A stretch of 32,528 bases of DNA from Bacilli bacterium (GTDB lineage: Bacteria; Bacillota_I; Bacilli_A; RFN20; CAG-826): the NCBI GenBank assembly GCA_017635465.1, contig JAGBLL010000056.1:1-32528 (forward strand), written 5' to 3'. Below are positions 23,190 through 32,528 of the stretch, piece by piece. Position 1 is the first letter of the stretch; the number at the start of each line of letters is the position of its first letter. A model generated the notes under the pieces. The model was not told the DNA's origin. It saw only the letters and a list, made by a program, of their open reading frames with translations, and did no database searches. The position numbers and the translations under genes are program-made.

Positions 23190-23222
23190 TGTGGCACTTT
23201 TGTGCGCACACTCGGTTATAAT
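23190..23222 (+). promoter_or_regulatory. Direct-repeat promoter of the STAS-NRPS-esterase operon
   Basis: TGTGGCA (23190-23196) and TGTGCGCA (23201-23208) begin exactly 11 bases apart, one helical turn. A TATAAT (23217-23222) starts 27 bases after the first repeat. There is no good -35, so the repeats sit where an activator would replace it. The same layout occurs at 29670-29703 and 30174-30207. In the leader, TAACGTTT is repeated at 23236-23243 and 23246-23253. Confidence 0.6.
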
Positions 23223-23274
23223 AAGAACAATTAAATAACGTTTAGTAACGTTTTGACAAAAAGGGAGTTTTATT

Positions 23275-23577
23275 ATGAACGCTACAAAAAAGCAGACGGG
23301 TTCAGAACTTTTAATTGAACTCGAGGGAAGTATTGATAGCACTACTTCTAACGAATTAAACACAATTTTAAGCCAATCAATTAAAGGCATTAATTCATTA
23401 ATTCTTGATTTTAAAAAGATCGATTACGTTTCAAGTGCGGGCTTACGTGTCTTATTAGCGACATTTAAAGAGCTTGTTAACAGGGGTGGCACAATGGTCA
23501 TTCGTGGCGTTAATCAAAACGTCATGGACATTTTCACAATGACTGGCTTTGATAACATCCTCACTATTGAAAAGTAG
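23275..23577 (+). CDS. STAS-domain protein (anti-sigma-factor antagonist type)
   Basis: A 100-residue single-domain protein like SpoIIAA/RsbV, which in its unphosphorylated form sequesters an anti-sigma factor. The central VSSAGLRVLL (52-61) holds the usual phosphorylation serine, probably Ser54, with LDFKKIDY before it and the typical C-terminal DIFTMTGFDNILTIEK. No partner kinase/anti-sigma factor, phosphatase or sigma factor lies in the window. It is the first gene of the operon; its stop codon lies within the ribosome site (GTAGGAGGT) of the NRPS-like gene ten bases downstream. A GGGAG site supports the start. Whether it regulates transcription or controls the synthetase directly cannot be told. 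Confidence 0.92.
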   Translation: MNATKKQTGSELLIELEGSIDSTTSNELNTILSQSIKGINSLILDFKKIDYVSSAGLRVLLATFKELVNRGGTMVIRGVNQNVMDIFTMTGFDNILTIEK

Positions 23578-23587
23578 GAGGTCACTC

Positions 23588-26572
23588 ATGTACATCATTG
23601 AACAACTCGCAGCTTTTACTGCGGAAACGCCAAATAATGCCATTTTATTTGATGAAGCACACAATAAAGGCATTACTTATGCGCAGTTAGACGACTTATC
23701 AGGTCGTATTTACGCGTACTTAAAACAAAATAATATTGGTAAAGAAGACTTTGTCTTAATTAATCTTCCACGTGGTGTCATGCCAATTATTACCATGATT
23801 GGTGTTTGGAAAGCTGGCGCTGCCTGGGCACTAGTAGAAGACACATATGCCCCAGAACGTATTGCTTATATCCGCCAAGACTGTGGCTGTAAGATTGAAA
23901 TCAACGCCTCCAAATGGGAAGAAATCATGAAGATTGACCCTATTCAAGGCTATGTAAAAGTTGATTTGCACGATGCTGCTTATGCCATCTACACTTCTGG
24001 CACTACTGGTAATCCAAAAGGTGTTTTACACGAATATGGTAATTTAGAAAGAGCAATTGAATCTATTAAAGTTAACGGTGAAACTCCTTTCAATGGTAAA
24101 GACCGTTTAGCTTTATTAGCCCCGCTTAATTTCGTGGCGTCTGTTATCGTTATTTTGAAAGCATTAAGCGTTCATAACGGTAAGACATTCGTTGTTGGTT
24201 ACGCCACTATTAAGAACCCAATGGCGTTAAAGATGTTCTTCTTTGAAAAGAGAATTTCTATTACATTCTTAACACCTTCATATGTCAGAATGTTAGGTAA
24301 CACCACTGGTCCATTCCTTAGAATGCTCTTTGTTGGTAGTGAACCTGCTAATAACGTCTACAATAAAAACCTTGAATTAATTAATATTTACGCCTGTAGT
24401 GAAAGTGGTTTCGCTGTTGGTGTTTTCTTAATCGATAAGTCTTATGAAGTTTGCCCAATTGGTAAGCCAGAGGTTCCTACCCAAATCAAATTATTTGATG
24501 AAGATGGTAACGAAGCTAAAGAAGGCGAAATTGGTGAATTATGCTTTGAAAACCCATATGTTAGAGGCTATATCAATCTTCCAGAAGAAAGTAAGAAAGC
24601 CTTCACTAATGGTTTCTACCACTCCGGCGACTTAGCGAGAAAAGATGAAAAAGGTAACTATGTCTTATTAGGCCGTTCAGGCGACATGATTAAGATTAAT
24701 GGTAACCGTATTGAACCAGCGGAAATTGAAGCCGCAGTTAAGGCTGCTTTAAAAGTTAAATGGGCCGCTGCGAGAGGCTTTGAAGAAAATGGTAAGAGCT
24801 ATTTATGCGCTTATTATTTAGAAGATATCTCATTCGATCCAAATGAAATTAGACAAGAATTAATGAAGAGACTTCCATACTACATGATTCCTGCCTTCTT
24901 TATGAAAATTGATTCTGTCCCATTAAAGGCGAATGGTAAATTTGATAGAAAAGCATTACCAAAGCCAGATGCTAGTGATTTCAAAACAGAATACGCTGCT
25001 CCTACTAATGAGATTGAAGAAAAGATTTGTCACGCAATGGAAGTCGTCTTAAAAGCGGATAAAATTGGTATCCACGATGACTTCTATGAATTAGGTGGTG
25101 ACTCACTTGGTTCTATTCAAGTGATTGTTAACGCTGAACTTCCAGGATTGACCGCAAGTGAAATCTTCCGTGGTCGTACTCCTGAAAAGATTGCGAAATT
25201 ATATGAAGAAAAACAAGCTAGTGATGATGGGGAATCTCCAGAAATGAAGAACGCCGCTAGCATGAAAGTTGATCATCCATTAACCGTTGAACAACTATAC
25301 ATGGTTGACTATCAACTCTATACTCCTAAATCCACAATGTATAACTTATTCTCTATGTTAAAAGTGGATAAGGAAATGTTTGATATGGAAAAACTCGCGG
25401 CAACGATGAAGACTGTTATTAAGAATCATCCAGCCTTATTAACAACTTTCCATTTCAATGAAGATGGTGACATCGTTCAACGCTACACTCCAGATATCAT
25501 TGAAGATATTAAAGTTGAGAAACTTAGCGAATTTGAATTTGAATTATTAAAAGATAATTTAGTCATGCCATTTAAGATTATCGAAGGCAGATTATACCGC
25601 TGCCGTGTTTTTGAAACAGAAAAAGCTGGTTATGTCTTCTTTGATGTCCACCACACTGTCTTTGATGGTACATCATTAAAAGTCTTCATGGGTAATATTG
25701 GTAAAGCCTATATGGGTATGATGCCAGATCCAGACTTCTATTATTTGATGTTAGCAAAAAGAGAAGAAGCAGAAAAAACCGCCTTCTATGAAGAATCTAA
25801 GAAATATTTCGAAGATTTATATGATGGTGTTGAATGGTCCAGTTATCCAACCATCAACCATCAATCTCGTGAAAACGAATTAGGTGAATTATTCGTACCA
25901 TTAGGCATTGAACAAGCCCAAATGGCGGCGATGGAAAGACAATATCGTGTTAGCCGTAATGAATTCTTTATTGCAGTTGCAGTATTAGCGATTGCGATTT
26001 ATAACAAAAAGAATGATATTAAGATTTCTTGGATCTATAACGGCCGTGAAGATATGCAAATGATGTCCACTGTTGGTTTATTATTCCGTGATTTACCAGT
26101 TGGTGTCCGTTTACATGATAAAGACACAATTCGTGATATCTTTGCCGATATCCATAACCAAGTCCAAGGTGGTATCGAACATAGCTGTTATGCTTATGTT
26201 GATAAAAACAACCACGTTGGTACTGAATCTGCCTATTTGCTTTATCAACAAGATATCCGTGATATGAACGGGGCTGATGGTATGAATATTGAAACAATTG
26301 ATATTCGTCAAAATCAAGCGGCTTCTCAAACAATCTTAGATATGGAAATCTTAGATGGTAAAGAAGGCTTGGTCTTAATGATTGACTACGCTGCTAGTAG
26401 ATACAATCAAGAAAGCATGGAAAAATTCCGTGACTTATTCGTCATGACCGCGCAAGCATTAGTGACACATAATTCACAAAAAGACGTTACTGTCGCTGAT
26501 CTTAAGAAGAAATTATCCGATAAGAGTAACTTCTTCAGCAAGATTATTAGCATTTTCAAAAGGAAAAAATAG
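23588..26572 (+). CDS. NRPS-like protein: adenylation - carrier - condensation
   Basis: A 994-residue three-domain synthetase. The adenylation domain (1-460) has YTSGTTGNPKGV (135-146), the ACSESG motif (269-274), HSGDLA (345-350), GRSGDMIKINGNRIEPAEIE (362-381) and the catalytic Lys451 in ANGKFDRKAL. The carrier domain (about 468-545) holds the pantetheine serine Ser506 in LGGDSL. The condensation domain (about 560-960) has HHTVFDG (688-694), an intact HHxxxDG site. A basic tail (SIFKRKK) ends it. At the FDxS-type motif the sequence is FVASV, so Val183 replaces the Asp that binds the alpha-amino group in amino-acid-activating enzymes. The order suggests one unit is loaded and then joined to a free acceptor. 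The start is the ATG behind TAGGAGG; an earlier in-frame codon lies inside the STAS gene. Confidence 0.93.
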   Translation: MYIIEQLAAFTAETPNNAILFDEAHNKGITYAQLDDLSGRIYAYLKQNNIGKEDFVLINLPRGVMPIITMIGVWKAGAAWALVEDTYAPERIAYIRQDCGCKIEINASKWEEIMKIDPIQGYVKVDLHDAAYAIYTSGTTGNPKGVLHEYGNLERAIESIKVNGETPFNGKDRLALLAPLNFVASVIVILKALSVHNGKTFVVGYATIKNPMALKMFFFEKRISITFLTPSYVRMLGNTTGPFLRMLFVGSEPANNVYNKNLELINIYACSESGFAVGVFLIDKSYEVCPIGKPEVPTQIKLFDEDGNEAKEGEIGELCFENPYVRGYINLPEESKKAFTNGFYHSGDLARKDEKGNYVLLGRSGDMIKINGNRIEPAEIEAAVKAALKVKWAAARGFEENGKSYLCAYYLEDISFDPNEIRQELMKRLPYYMIPAFFMKIDSVPLKANGKFDRKALPKPDASDFKTEYAAPTNEIEEKICHAMEVVLKADKIGIHDDFYELGGDSLGSIQVIVNAELPGLTASEIFRGRTPEKIAKLYEEKQASDDGESPEMKNAASMKVDHPLTVEQLYMVDYQLYTPKSTMYNLFSMLKVDKEMFDMEKLAATMKTVIKNHPALLTTFHFNEDGDIVQRYTPDIIEDIKVEKLSEFEFELLKDNLVMPFKIIEGRLYRCRVFETEKAGYVFFDVHHTVFDGTSLKVFMGNIGKAYMGMMPDPDFYYLMLAKREEAEKTAFYEESKKYFEDLYDGVEWSSYPTINHQSRENELGELFVPLGIEQAQMAAMERQYRVSRNEFFIAVAVLAIAIYNKKNDIKISWIYNGREDMQMMSTVGLLFRDLPVGVRLHDKDTIRDIFADIHNQVQGGIEHSCYAYVDKNNHVGTESAYLLYQQDIRDMNGADGMNIETIDIRQNQAASQTILDMEILDGKEGLVLMIDYAASRYNQESMEKFRDLFVMTAQALVTHNSQKDVTVADLKKKLSDKSNFFSKIISIFKRKK

Positions 26573-28245
26573 TGAGTAAAAATAATAAAACAGCATTAGA
26601 AAAGGAAAGGATTAATGCCTTATTTGGTGAAAATAGAAAATTAAATTACAACCCAGACGAAGAGCATTCTGTTGGATGCAATAACGGTGTCTTTGTTCCT
26701 AAAGTAATGGACATGGTACGTATTTTTAAAGGCATTCCTTTCGCTTTGCCTCCAATTGGGGAAAGAAGATGGAAGAAGCCTGTTCCTGTTCCAGATGGTG
26801 ATAACATTTACGAGGCTTATTATAACGGTAAGTCTCCTATTCAAACCGTCATTGATTCTGAACGTTCGTCATATTACCCACAAAGTGAAGATTGTCTTTA
26901 TTTAAATGTTTGGGTAAATGATGCTTGTAAAGACACGAATAAGCCCATCATGGTCTTTATCCATGGCGGTGCTTATGGTTGGGGCGGTACAGTTGATCCT
27001 CTTTATGATGGTCTCAACTTTATTAAACTTCATCCAGAAGTCATCTTGATTACCATTGCTTATCGTGTTGGTTTATTTGGCTTTGTTGATTTAAGTTATC
27101 TAAAAGGTGGAGAACAATTTGAAGACGCTCCTAATTTAGGTATCTATGACCAAATAGAGGCATTACGTTGGATTCAAAAAAACGGTGAAGCTTTTGGTGG
27201 CGATATTAATAATGTCACAATATTTGGTGAATCCGCAGGAGGTGGATCTGTATCCATCTTGCCTTTAATCGACGAGGCTAGAGGATTATTTCATCGTGTC
27301 ATCGCTGAAAGCGGCTCTTTAGCGTTAACTTACGCCAAAGATGAATGCAAAGCTTTTACCGATAAACTTATTAAAGCCAGTGGCAAAGATTCAATGAACG
27401 AATTAATGAAATTAACCACTGAAGAATTAGCCAAAATAAACGAAGGTTTAAACGAGGCTAATAATTTCCCTATGAGAGATGGTAAATTAATTCCTATTGA
27501 CCCATATGAGCCATATTTAAAGGGGAAAACAAAAGATATCGATATGATCTTAGGAACCAACGCTAATGAATTATATTATTGGATTGGTGAATTAGGTGGC
27601 TTATTTAACTATAGCGCGGGTATGCCTGTCAAATATAAAGAGGACATATCTAAAGTTAAAAAAGAAGATAAAAAATTCATTAAAGACTTTATGCGCATAG
27701 CGAAAGGTAATAAGATTGCGCGTATTACTGAATTCTATAATGAAATCATGTTCCGTTTGCCGGCTATTTTACAAGCGGAAGGTCATTCGGAAAATAACGG
27801 CAATGTTTATATGTATTATTGGAAAGAAGAATCTAAGATTCCATTATATAAAGCCTGCCACGCAGTTGAATTAGCCTATGTCTTCTATAATATCGATGAA
27901 ACTATCTATACTGGTGAAAAAGCTGATGAAGAATTAGCGAGGACGGTATCTAATATGTGGGTGGAATTTGCCAAAACCGGTAATCCGTCTCTACCAGATA
28001 TCAAATGGGATAAATATGATATCAAAAACAGAAAAACTATCACCTTCAAAAAAGATGATATCAAGATTGAAGAGGATATCTTAAAAGCACAAAGAGAAAT
28101 ATTATTCCCAATCGTTAAATATATGATTAATCCTGGCTACGCTGATATCGAAGAAAATATGTCTTTATTAGAAAAGACTAATGCAGCGATAAATGCTGTA
28201 TTCAGTAGTATCTCCACTCTTGTAGCGGAAAGAATCATTAAATAA
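26572..28245 (+). CDS. Type-B carboxylesterase
   Basis: A 557-residue alpha/beta-hydrolase of the carboxylesterase/para-nitrobenzyl-esterase family. It has FKGIPFALPPIGERRWKKP, SEDCLYLNVW, the oxyanion segment VFIHGGAYGWGG, nucleophile GESAGG (Ser220), acid LGTNANE (Glu333) and base KACHAVELAYVF (His430), a complete triad. There is no signal peptide, so it is probably cytoplasmic. The start is GTG, whose G is the last base of the NRPS stop codon, so the two are translationally coupled and made in step. In this setting it could release, trim or transesterify the synthetase product; that is inference. The final 30 residues look like an amphipathic helix. Confidence 0.93.
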   Translation: MSKNNKTALEKERINALFGENRKLNYNPDEEHSVGCNNGVFVPKVMDMVRIFKGIPFALPPIGERRWKKPVPVPDGDNIYEAYYNGKSPIQTVIDSERSSYYPQSEDCLYLNVWVNDACKDTNKPIMVFIHGGAYGWGGTVDPLYDGLNFIKLHPEVILITIAYRVGLFGFVDLSYLKGGEQFEDAPNLGIYDQIEALRWIQKNGEAFGGDINNVTIFGESAGGGSVSILPLIDEARGLFHRVIAESGSLALTYAKDECKAFTDKLIKASGKDSMNELMKLTTEELAKINEGLNEANNFPMRDGKLIPIDPYEPYLKGKTKDIDMILGTNANELYYWIGELGGLFNYSAGMPVKYKEDISKVKKEDKKFIKDFMRIAKGNKIARITEFYNEIMFRLPAILQAEGHSENNGNVYMYYWKEESKIPLYKACHAVELAYVFYNIDETIYTGEKADEELARTVSNMWVEFAKTGNPSLPDIKWDKYDIKNRKTITFKKDDIKIEEDILKAQREILFPIVKYMINPGYADIEENMSLLEKTNAAINAVFSSISTLVAERIIK

Positions 28246-28248
28246 CAA

Positions 28249-28279
28249 AATAGCCACCTCAATTAATCAGGTGGCTTTT
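28249..28279. terminator. Bidirectional terminator between convergent units
   Basis: AGCCACCT pairs with AGGTGGCT around a 9-base AT-rich loop, with T-rich sequence to the right and A-rich sequence to the left. It lies between the esterase stop (28245) and the stop of the minus-strand lipoprotein (28288) and can serve both. Confidence 0.85.
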
Positions 28280-28287
28280 AATTTAAA

Positions 28288-28848
28288 TTAGATTGTAATT
28301 GTTCTATTAATTTCAAATCTAATGGCTTCATCCATTTTTTCACTTAATCCAGTTGTCCATTTAGGATTATCTGTACCATCAGAAATAGCGATATAAACTT
28401 TACCACCAACATATGGATTAATATAGTTTCTACCAAATTTCTCTAGATAGCTTTCCAAAGCACTAGCTCTTAAGCCTTTAGCGACGTGAAGATTTGTTTC
28501 ACCAATAGAATCGCCAGATGGTTTCTTTTGGCAAACCATGATGAAGTTGAGTTTTTCTTTCGTGGCTTCACCACTTGAAGTTAATTCGCCTTCGACAATA
28601 TTTAATAATGTACCACTAGTAAGATCTTTATCTTGATACTTAAATGTAAGACCCAAATCATCATTCATAATGTCAAATCTGATTTGATTTTCTTTTAGGA
28701 ATGTTAAATATGATGGTAGTTCTTGTTTTTCTGATGATTCAGTAATATTCGCACTACTGGCATCTATTGATTTTTCTTTTGGTGTACAACCACTGATTAA
28801 TAAGCTACCCGCTAATAATGCGGTAGCGATAATGTGACCTTTCTTCAT
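28288..28848 (-). CDS. Lipoprotein of unknown function
   Basis: A 186-residue lipoprotein with lipobox LLISGC (Cys21), then a Ser-rich linker and a folded domain of about 140 residues (RFDIMNDDLGLTFKYQDKDL, NFIMVCQKK, YIAISDGT) that I cannot place. The start is the ATG behind AGGGGAGC; a longer frame with eleven more residues would bury that site in the coding region. It lies 38 bases downstream of the Pr6Pr-like gene and may be co-transcribed with it. Confidence 0.8.
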   Translation of the reverse strand: MKKGHIIATALLAGSLLISGCTPKEKSIDASSANITESSEKQELPSYLTFLKENQIRFDIMNDDLGLTFKYQDKDLTSGTLLNIVEGELTSSGEATKEKLNFIMVCQKKPSGDSIGETNLHVAKGLRASALESYLEKFGRNYINPYVGGKVYIAISDGTDNPKWTTGLSEKMDEAIRFEINRTITI

Positions 28849-28886
28849 TTTATTGCTCCCCTTTTTTATTATTATAAACATTATTA

Positions 28887-29555
28887 TTAATATTTATGTG
28901 TTCTTTTTTGTCTTAGATTCATGAATAAGCAGAAAAGGAAACATAAAGCACAGATGGCAATTAATAAAACTATAATCCATAAGATAATGCCAAATCCTTT
29001 TTCAAAAAAGAAACCATTTTTTTCATAATCTAAAAAGAAATATGGGAATTTAAGATTAGGACCATATTGGAAGTTAAGTGGCACACCGATGTAAACGAAC
29101 ATCACATAATATAAAGGCATAGCCGCGCCAGTTAATGATCTTGGATAAGTAATATTGATACCCGTGTCGAATAAAAAGAAATCAATGATAGCAAGAATCG
29201 GCACTATCGCATGTAATGAGAAATTGTTGAACGATAATAGATAATCCACACCCATTAAAGGGGCTAACATTGTGAAAAATACTAAGAACGTGATAGTAAT
29301 TGCGATTGTGGCCACGAATTTAAAATAATGAAGTATCTGGTTCATGAATGATTGATTCTTAACCAATTTATATATTTCGTTAACAATGGTAATTACCGCC
29401 ATAATGATAATGAATATATTGCTTTGCACAGTAAAGAATAAAAACACTGATAAGCCACCCATAAAACTATTTGACAAAGTGGTAAAAACAATGCCTAATA
29501 TGCCAACGATGACAAGAGTGGATAAAATAGCAATTCTAGCGATTCTCTTTTTCAT
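28887..29555 (-). CDS. Pr6Pr-family-like integral membrane protein
   Basis: A 222-residue protein made almost wholly of six or so membrane spans. The phrases FFTVQSNIFIIIM, HAIVPILAIIDFFLFD, TYPRSLTGAAMPLYYVMFVYIG and PYFFLDYEKNG match the layout I associate with Pr6Pr/androgen-induced-gene-like membrane proteins of Firmicutes. The biochemical role is unknown. It begins only four bases after the stop of the 27-codon ORF at 29560-29643 and has just a weak AAGG site, so it probably depends on translation of that ORF and on its direct-repeat promoter. Confidence 0.8.
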   Translation of the reverse strand: MKKRIARIAILSTLVIVGILGIVFTTLSNSFMGGLSVFLFFTVQSNIFIIIMAVITIVNEIYKLVKNQSFMNQILHYFKFVATIAITITFLVFFTMLAPLMGVDYLLSFNNFSLHAIVPILAIIDFFLFDTGINITYPRSLTGAAMPLYYVMFVYIGVPLNFQYGPNLKFPYFFLDYEKNGFFFEKGFGIILWIIVLLIAICALCFLFCLFMNLRQKRTHKY

Positions 29556-29559
29556 AACC

Positions 29560-29643
29560 TTATTGTCTGATAGTAATATAAAAACGTATATTTATACGCT
29601 TTAGAAAAAGAAGTGAAATGAAGCCATCATTTTCTTCTTTCAT
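29560..29643 (-). CDS. 27-codon leader ORF sharing the Nif11-like start region
   Basis: Opens MKEENDGF and ends four bases before the Pr6Pr-like ATG. Its ribosome site AGCAAGGGAG, spacing and first codons (ATG AAA GAA GAA) match those of the Nif11-leader gene at 29887-30147, but after the fourth codon the sequence is unrelated and no double-glycine or Cys motif follows. It may be a remnant of a duplicated peptide gene whose body was lost, now acting as a translational entry for the membrane protein, or a real short peptide. Confidence 0.4.
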   Translation of the reverse strand: MKEENDGFISLLFLKRINIRFYITIRQ

Positions 29644-29703
29644 TATTAAAATTCTCCCTTGCTATTTTCACATTAACATAGACACTGCCACAGAAGTGCC
29701 ACA
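29632..29703 (-). repeat. Copy B of a 72-base promoter/leader duplication
   Basis: Aligns without gaps to 30136-30207, with 56 of 72 positions identical by hand. The span covers the direct repeats, the ribosome site AGCAAGGGAG and the first four codons. Confidence 0.8.
29670..29703 (-). promoter_or_regulatory. Direct-repeat promoter of the leader ORF/Pr6Pr unit
   Basis: On the minus strand TGTGGCA (29697-29703) and TGTGGCA (29686-29692) are perfect direct repeats with an 11-base period. The -10-like TAATGT (29670-29675) is weak but occupies the same position as in the Nif11-leader gene. Confidence 0.55.
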
Positions 29704-29843
29704 TATAAAGATTGATTATTCTCTTATTAGATTATTATTCTTGATGATAACTTTCTTTTCCCATTTACTAGATTTAAAACGGATAAACATAATAGTGCCT
29801 TCTTTTTTACTGATTTATCATTTAAACGTCAAAAAACAAAAAA

Positions 29844-29875
29844 GTTGATAGCGGACTACCAACTTTTCTGTATTA
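29844..29875 (-). terminator. Terminator after the Nif11-leader peptide gene
   Basis: AAGTTG and CAACTT arms (about 29851-29873) with an imperfect inner stem, followed on the minus strand by TTTTTTG. It lies just past the stop codon at 29887. Confidence 0.7.
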
Positions 29876-29886
29876 CTTTTTTAAAA

Positions 29887-30147
29887 TTAATTTCTATCAA
29901 ATTTTCTATTACAAGCTAAACACTTATATCGTTTCTTAGATACAAATGCAACCCAAGTACAACCACAGTAAGGGCATTCTTGAACTGTAACTGTTGCATT
30001 ACATCCACCAGAAATAGCGGCAAGCTGCTCATCGGTTAATTCAATACCTTCTTGCTTTGCTAACGCCAAAAGTTCTTGTGTATTCCTACATGCTTGCGCT
30101 TTAGCTATTTGTTCTTTAGTTAAGCCTTTCAATAATTCTTCTTTCAT
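29887..30147 (-). CDS. Nif11-leader peptide fused to a zinc-ribbon-like Cys-rich tail
   Basis: An 86-residue peptide in two parts. Residues 1-48 form a Nif11-like leader of the type used by gut Firmicutes RiPP and bacteriocin precursors (LTKEQIAKAQACRN, ELLALAKQEGIELTDEQL, AAISGG), ending in a double glycine at 47-48 where C39-type peptidase transporters cut. Residues 49-86 hold six cysteines: Cys49, then CPYCGC (58-63) and CLAC (76-79), laid out like a small zinc ribbon ending RKFDRN. No modifying enzyme or peptidase/ABC transporter is encoded in the window. It could be a secreted Cys-rich peptide or a metal-binding regulator. The ATG is preferred over a TTG two codons upstream because the twin region at 29643 keeps only the ATG. 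Confidence 0.85.
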   Translation of the reverse strand: MKEELLKGLTKEQIAKAQACRNTQELLALAKQEGIELTDEQLAAISGGCNATVTVQECPYCGCTWVAFVSKKRYKCLACNRKFDRN

Positions 30148-30207
30148 ATTCAAAATTCTCCCTTGCTAATTTGATAATATCATTATGAATGTCACAAATG
30201 TGCCACA
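30136..30207 (-). repeat. Copy A of the 72-base promoter/leader duplication
   Basis: Partner of 29632-29703. Identity is highest over the ribosome site and start codon (16 consecutive identical bases, AGCAAGGGAGAATTTT) and over the repeat heptamers. Confidence 0.8.
30174..30207 (-). promoter_or_regulatory. Direct-repeat promoter of the Nif11-leader peptide
   Basis: On the minus strand TGTGGCA (30201-30207) and TGTGACA (30190-30196) are 11 bases apart. TATTAT (30174-30179) follows, starting 28 bases from the first repeat. No sigma-A -35 is evident. Same architecture as at 23190-23222 and 29670-29703. Confidence 0.6.
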
Positions 30208-31645: not shown

Positions 31646-31673
31646 TAAAAAAGTCGCCCGTTATGGACGACTT
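31646..31673 (-). terminator. Terminator without a recognisable gene
   Basis: AAGTCGCCC and GGACGACTT arms, followed on the minus strand by TTTTTTAAT, nearly the same as the hairpin at 30208-30240. The only minus-strand frame ending next to it is a 22-codon scrap. Confidence 0.7.
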
Positions 31674-32175
31674 GTTTTCAATAAGTATAATATTGTCCTG
31701 GTGCGAGCTCGTTTATCGCAGTTGGTACAGTTTTAGCCATTCTCATTATGTCTGGTTGGAGGCATTTGCGAGCGGCCTTTTTGCATTAATTTATGCGAGA
31801 CGTGGCTGCTTTGCGGAAGGCGAGTTGTGGCAGACGTTTTGCGGTGAGTTAGGCATTTGCTTGAGTTAGTCGATTCGGTGCGATGTGGAGCTTGTTTGGC
31901 TTGCTTATGGGCGTGTGGCTACATGGTCTGAAAGTAGCTGCGTGTGCGGTTGGTTCGGCGGGCGGTCAGTAAGGTATGAGAAGAGAGTTTTGGTGGTAGC
32001 TATATATTATATATATAAATAGGTGTGAGATAGAGTAGATGGAAGTATGAGATAGTAGGTAGTTATTAGTATGTGTTGTAGTAGGTAAGTATGAGTAGTT
32101 TGTCTATGTATAGGTAGATAAGAAGTAAGTATTATTTGTCTAATATTTTTTTATATGGGGTGGGGAGAGAAAGTA

Positions 32176-32204
32176 TGAAAAAAGATCTAGGGTTAGTAGA
32201 TCTT
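32176..32204 (-). terminator. Perfect 8-base hairpin with T-run
   Basis: AAGATCTA (32182-32189) and TAGATCTT (32197-32204) with loop GGGTTAG. On the minus strand it is followed by a T-run, so it may stop transcription coming out of the IS66-type element. Confidence 0.6.
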
Positions 32205-32294
32205 AATTTGTGTTTTGTTGTTGTGATTAATTGTTGTGTAATGTATCTAAAGTTAATTATTGAGAATAATTGAAATTAGATTATTACAGGTGAT

Positions 32295-32528
32295 GTAACC
32301 GCCCAGCCCCAATGTTTAAAAAATAGACAAAAATCTTTGCAAAAATCTCAAGCTCAACCACCAAAGCTCAAAATAGCAAGCCATACAGTATGCCTAAAAG
32401 ATAGCCATATCTAGCGGTGATACGAATTTTCGAACAACTTGATCGAATATTCGAACTAAATAAAATATTGCTTAATAGATAGTTCCTTAGGGAGTTTCTC
32501 TGACCATGGTAAGAGATCTTCAATAGGA
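32295..32528 (-). mobile_element. Right end of an IS66-family insertion sequence (partial)
   Basis: The element edge starts GTAACCGCCCAGCCCC at 32295; IS66-family inverted repeats begin GTAA followed by a GC-rich run. About 160 bases inside lies the 3' end of a transposase frame. Base composition switches sharply here from C-poor to C-containing. The rest of the element is outside the window. CAGGTGAT (32287-32294) would be one copy of the expected 8-base target duplication. Confidence 0.7.
32456..32527 (-). CDS. IS66-family transposase, C-terminal end only
   Basis: The last 23 codons of a frame that runs off the window edge. It reads PIEDLLPWSEKLPKEL and then a short tail to a TAG. The LLPW motif near the C-terminus is typical of IS66 TnpC-type transposases, and the distance to the element end fits. 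Only the tail is visible, so whether the gene is intact cannot be judged. Confidence 0.65.
   Translation of the reverse strand, partial: PIEDLLPWSEKLPKELSIKQYFI

Follow-up and report, generated by a model that had tools for sequence, protein, structure and literature searches.

We believe that the repeated boxes described here are very probably the activator sites of a dispersed regulon, driven by a two-component system whose response regulator carries a SARP-like DNA-binding domain behind its receiver (REC-SARP). This reading is built by computation from the motif, the phase of its -10, its targets, the co-occurrence and adjacency of the regulator and the fold predicted for it. The starting point was a 32,528-nucleotide stretch of DNA from a rumen bacterium of the Bacilli (the window), in which three promoters with 11-base direct repeats had been predicted to join an NRPS-like operon, a Nif11-type peptide and a membrane protein in one regulon. 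The boxes lie where they were predicted, at 23190-23204 (+), 30193-30207 (-) and 29689-29703 (-), and each fits the pattern TGTG[AG]CAC[AT]T[CT]TGTG. The NRPS-like operon and the leader peptide stand as targets (boxes at 23190 and 30207), and the shared regulon is borne out at a far larger scale than the window showed, with 18 sites in the host genome and 232 across the family. The features of the window are as follows.

23190..23207, + strand: box 1, TGTGGCACTTTTGTGCGC; its second repeat ends in the rarer CGC, a variant seen again in other loci
23217..23222, + strand: -10 TATAAT of the STAS-NRPS-esterase operon, from sequence and fixed phase
23275..23577, + strand: STAS-domain protein of the anti-sigma factor antagonist type (PF01740, 7.8e-19; TIGR00377 above cut-off)
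23588..26572, + strand: NRPS-like protein with adenylation, carrier and condensation-like parts (TIGR01733, 8.7e-61; TIGR01733 and the NRPS models score below their cut-offs)
26572..28245, + strand: carboxylesterase-family protein of the same operon (PF00135, 2.7e-90)
28887..29555, - strand: membrane protein, 148 nt past box 3, doubtful as a dedicated target
29560..29643, - strand: decayed leader-gene remnant of 27 codons, MKEEN..., from comparison with the related locus L113
29670..29675, - strand: -10 TAATGT with TG upstream, from sequence and fixed phase
29686..29703, - strand: box 3, TGTGGCACTTCTGTGGCA, from sequence and motif matches
29887..30147, - strand: Nif11-like double-glycine leader peptide with a Cys-rich, zinc-ribbon-like core (leader profile, E 4.6e-28)
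30174..30179, - strand: -10 TATTAT of the leader-peptide gene, from sequence and fixed phase
30190..30207, - strand: box 2, TGTGGCACATTTGTGACA, from sequence and motif matches

At its start the window also holds a tmRNA gene (7-401, -) with the tag DNSYMRAPRAQSLCLA. Near its other end, at 31650-32400, GC skew is strongly positive (0.3 to 0.8) with little coding, while the strand around it is otherwise negative in GC skew; this may be a chimeric contig end.

The motif is well above background. In the host genome (1.83 Mb, 137 contigs, about 95% complete) the pattern occurs 18 times and its reverse not once. Within the window, TGTGGCACWTYTGTG with up to two mismatches matches the three boxes only, where shuffled sequence gives 0.27 matches, and the looser TGTGNCANNNNTGTG with one mismatch matches five times against 1.8 expected. 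Exact TGTGNCANNNNTGTG has 19 matches in the host genome (reversed control, 0), 18 of which are fitted by TGTGRCACWTYTGTG. Across the family the motif is present in 33 of 146 genomes, with no matches for the control and a highest load of 24 sites in one genome; in a sample centred on Lachnospiraceae few genomes (12 of 200) have the exact motif. The complete box is 18 bp long, TGTG[GA]CAC[TA]T[TC]TGTG[AG]CA, the spacer bases being conserved as well. We did not find the motif or the regulator described in the open-access papers searched, a set that excludes most subscription journals. A separate near-match, on contig C134 of the assembly G000 (C134:1-3000, L037), falls inside a eukaryotic-looking contaminant with a long dynein-heavy-chain-like frame, recognised by eye, which suggests that this assembly is contaminated by eukaryotic DNA, perhaps from a rumen ciliate.

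The anatomy of the promoters is equally regular. A logo of 49 sites, chosen without any -10 in the query, reads TGTG[GA]CAC[TA]T[TC]TGTG[AG]CA, then seven variable bases, then TGnTAnnnT; base 41 is a purine in 42 of the 49, so that the box would start at -40. TAnnnT begins at box base 29 (offset 28) in 39 of 55 sites, or in 51 if a shift of one base is allowed, against 7.0 in shuffles. The -10 therefore sits where it had been predicted, 27-28 bases after the first repeat, with offset 27 at some sites; it is often extended (TGnTAnnnT) and lies a fixed 10 bp from the heptamer end, or 6 bp from the end of the second 11-mer. No consensus -35 is seen at the logo sites, in keeping with the predicted activator-type promoters without a sigma-A -35, and since the -10 is sigma-A-like, the main sigma factor would read such promoters. 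TGRCAC-N5-TGRCA matches the -24/-12 spacing of sigma-54, but we set this sigma factor aside: the GC at -12 is not conserved, and the sigma-A-like -10 stands at fixed phase.

The regulator had been expected outside the window, and the search among relatives found a co-conserved candidate there, although not the LytTR protein that had been named as a possibility. When three DNA-binding families were compared across the 146 family genomes, the REC-SARP response regulator was found in 28 of the 33 genomes with the motif and in 4 of the 113 others (Fisher p=8.8e-21), an association that is not independent of the gene cluster, as regulator gene and box are physically linked. It persists within genera (permutation p=5e-5). 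In loci fetched by the motif the response regulator adjoins the box, and in eleven distinct loci from Bacilli and Clostridia, fetched by motif or regulator search, the regulator gene ends 2-65 bp before the box; in Lachnospiraceae AC2029 the distance is 225 bp. The Clostridia part of our reading is based on this adjacency, not on co-occurrence: in the Lachnospiraceae the regulator is present in 20 of 20 genomes that had been picked for having the motif. Directly after the regulator gene at one locus (L183/L109:1499-1530) there is an overlapping triple repeat, TGTGGCATTTCTGTGGCACTTCTGTGGCA, possibly an autoregulatory or stronger site.

Exceptions occur in both directions. Four genomes with a REC-SARP regulator carry no exact motif, and five motif genomes have no strong regulator match: G007, where what is left of a regulator stands next to the only site; G105, G015 and G043, which are 77-86% complete; and the window's own genome. 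In this last assembly we found no canonical copy. The contig with its exporter (C63) starts partway through the exporter gene; the contig break has thus removed the genes that in relatives lie upstream of the exporter, and we infer that the canonical regulator was lost with them; in the genus mate G112 the regulator sits on a contig other than the exporter's. What the own assembly does contain, on contig C25, is a diverged SARP-type paralogue with its own kinase (E 7.5e-18). As the only SARP-type regulator found in that assembly, this paralogue might drive the sites of this strain in place of the canonical protein, but we consider this unlikely, given that similar diverged copies occur in the motif-free genomes G048, G115 and G139 and that G112 has the canonical regulator together with the same motif.

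The canonical REC-SARP protein remains our candidate, and the genes around it raise a second alternative. In one stretch (G110) the order is kinase, regulator, a phosphopantetheinyl transferase-like gene, NRPS, a MATE-like transporter, STAS, a SpoIIE-type protein and the box, after which come STAS, STAS-kinase, SpoIIE/RsbW and radical SAM genes and then the NHLP exporter; in G100 it is regulator, box, leader, radical SAM, box, a small secretion protein and two ABC exporters. At L034:4830-7183 we noted by eye a sigma-like ORF and, after it, a membrane-anchored protein; the two lie downstream of a boxed leader gene, and an NRPS and a phosphopantetheinyl transferase-like gene stand further downstream. 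STAS, SpoIIE and RsbW-like genes recur within and beside the regulon and a sigma-like ORF adjoins one target locus, and one could imagine the box being read by another regulator of the same cluster or by an alternative sigma factor under STAS/SpoIIE control. This is improbable: the -10 is sigma-A-like with a frequent extended TG, a repeat box of 18 bp does not resemble a sigma -35, and among the genes typed REC-SARP is the DNA-binding protein seen next to the box.

The predicted structure of the REC-SARP regulator bears on what kind of protein it is. Its C-terminal half has no Pfam match, BTAD and Trans_reg_C included. The model of this half (pLDDT 87, pTM 0.83) has five PDB matches with E<0.001, all of them the SARPs AfsR and EmbR, and sequence profiles agree weakly with the fold (EmbR E 0.011, AfsR 0.043); the AfsR alignment spans 147 columns of the 131-residue C-terminal model, the C-terminal tail being short. 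The full-length model resembles OmpR/PhoB response regulators, a receiver followed by a winged helix, and the predicted fold is that of an OmpR-type DNA-binding domain. The receiver is similar to the BtsR and LytR receivers, and the neighbouring kinase is LytS-type (PF06580 and PF02518); because of these two matches the pair looks like a LytS-LytR system whose output domain has been exchanged.

A classical OmpR/PhoB-family regulator would share much of this. The Pho box has an 11-bp repeat with the -10 about 27 bases in, the same geometry as here; PhoB likewise combines a receiver with a winged helix, a fold shared by the SARP-like domain; and one such regulator is present in the window's own genome (C126, L033). 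Nonetheless, binding of the boxes by such a protein is very improbable, as Trans_reg_C neither matches the regulator described here nor is associated with the motif at Pfam level in the 146 genomes (p=0.32), and the motif-rich G004, G006, G100, G134 and G140 have no Trans_reg_C match. There is next to no chance that a LytTR-type response regulator binds the repeats, as first suggested: the LytS-type kinase, the BtsR- and LytR-like receiver and the LytTR control of double-glycine peptide regulons in streptococci speak for it, but LytTR proteins are absent from 26 of the 33 motif genomes and show no association with the motif (7/33 with it, 25/113 without, p=1), their repeats lie about 21 bp apart against 11 here, and motif-rich genomes lacking any LytTR refute it as the general regulator.

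The closest known parallel to REC-SARP and its box is provided by the SARPs (AfsR, DnrI, ActII-ORF4), regulators of antibiotic synthesis in Streptomyces, and the afs box; the SARPs also give the best fold match. Published boxes of this kind consist of direct repeats with a spacing of 11 or 22 bp that overlap the -35; 8 bp separate the 3' repeat from the -10, and the 22-bp afs box has its start at position -40 (PMC10936776, PMC10972967); an 11-bp period suits the winged helices of OmpR/SARP-type proteins (PMC10936776). The boxes described here share the 11-bp heptamer direct repeats over the -35 region (about -40 to -19), the poor promoter, the -10 at a fixed distance and targets in specialised metabolism (PMC10936776, PMC10972967). 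Their 3' repeat stands at a fixed short distance from the -10, the exact 8-bp count depending on the repeat end chosen. At the same time, the present system differs from the SARPs in having a receiver fused in front, a short C-terminal part, no BTAD Pfam match, hosts in the Bacillota, a different repeat sequence and a dispersed regulon.

Most box targets are Nif11-like double-glycine leader peptides with a Cys-rich core whose spacing, CPxCG...C..C, resembles a zinc ribbon; in the window peptide the sequence runs MKEELLKGLTKEQ...SGG and then CPYCG...CLAC. "Nif11-like" is a description here and implies no membership, because the window peptide matches Pfam Nif11 (PF07862) with E 0.025, below the cut-off; TIGR03798 gives no match to it. 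With a profile of the leader, four motif-bearing genomes yield 13-20 genes each and six motif-free relatives, drawn from the same three genera, yield none; in the four genomes an exact box stands 57-74 nt before the start codon of 42 of 61 leader genes (mode 60). A double-glycine leader ending occurs together with a C39-type exporter in the genome, and the NHLP exporter (TIGR03796-like, E<1e-230) was present in six of six motif-bearing and none of six motif-free genomes checked. We expect the peptides to be exported, with cleavage at the double glycine, and they may act as antimicrobials or signals. Sites in the host genome precede leader-peptide genes, lipoproteins, P-type ATPases, an acyltransferase, an ABC transporter and the STAS-NRPS-esterase operon, names outside the window being assigned by eye. 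Among the loci fetched from other genomes, none contained the start of an operon orthologous to the NRPS-like one. At two Clostridia loci (L108, L142) we read by eye a double-glycine leader with a LysM-like core behind the same box.

The leaders resemble those of the NHLP/Nif11 systems (TIGR03796, TIGR03798; Haft 2010, PMC2887384) in ending in a double glycine, and the exporter, NHLM_micro_ABC1 with a C39 peptidase, is likewise of that kind, but the core here is zinc-ribbon-like. A term search of Haft 2010 (PMC2887384) found no mention of a regulator. The lah cluster of Lachnospiraceae C6A11 (LahA/LahT) also combines a single C39 transporter with numerous Nif11-type leaders (PMC6363468); lah is a lanthipeptide operon, whereas the peptides described here are scattered over the genome and joined by a common promoter box.

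The membrane protein is the one predicted target to have fared less well. The box at 29703 is real, but the dedicated link is weak because the box heads a decayed leader gene. The RUG12224 locus L113, 91-96% identical to that of the window, has the same box, 5' UTR and start leading into a frameshifted leader gene, and a second box and leader lie between this counterpart of box 3 and the membrane-protein gene. Either a deletion in the window joined box 3 to the membrane-protein gene or L113 gained sequence; read-through from box 3 into that gene is possible. A Pfam search of the membrane protein gave no match.

From these observations a general pathway can be proposed, in which binding, phosphorylation and activation by the regulator are what we infer. 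The LytS-type histidine kinase and the REC-SARP response regulator would form a two-component system, and the boxes would be the predicted activator sites of its dispersed regulon. Most likely the regulator sits on the 11-bp direct repeat (about -40 to -19) as a dimer, its two subunits side by side, and from there would recruit sigma-A RNA polymerase to promoters that lack a -35 but possess an extended -10. The output would be many double-glycine leader peptides and part of the radical-SAM and NHLP/C39 export cassette, along with STAS/SpoIIE partner-switch proteins and, in this strain, the NRPS-like operon.

The 18-bp signature can be searched for and picks out otherwise hidden genes for secreted peptides with no need of a biosynthetic cluster, and the analysis names a candidate regulator for the peptide family found here in rumen bacteria. 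More tentatively, and with somewhat less than even confidence, we suggest a SARP-type two-component peptide-signalling regulon in rumen Bacilli and some Clostridia, in which one kinase-regulator pair would govern up to about 20 promoters for secreted double-glycine peptides of the zinc-ribbon-like type, along with export and NRPS genes, with the exported peptides possibly serving as inducer. Already our main reading would place a SARP-like activator mechanism outside the Actinobacteria, fused to a two-component receiver.
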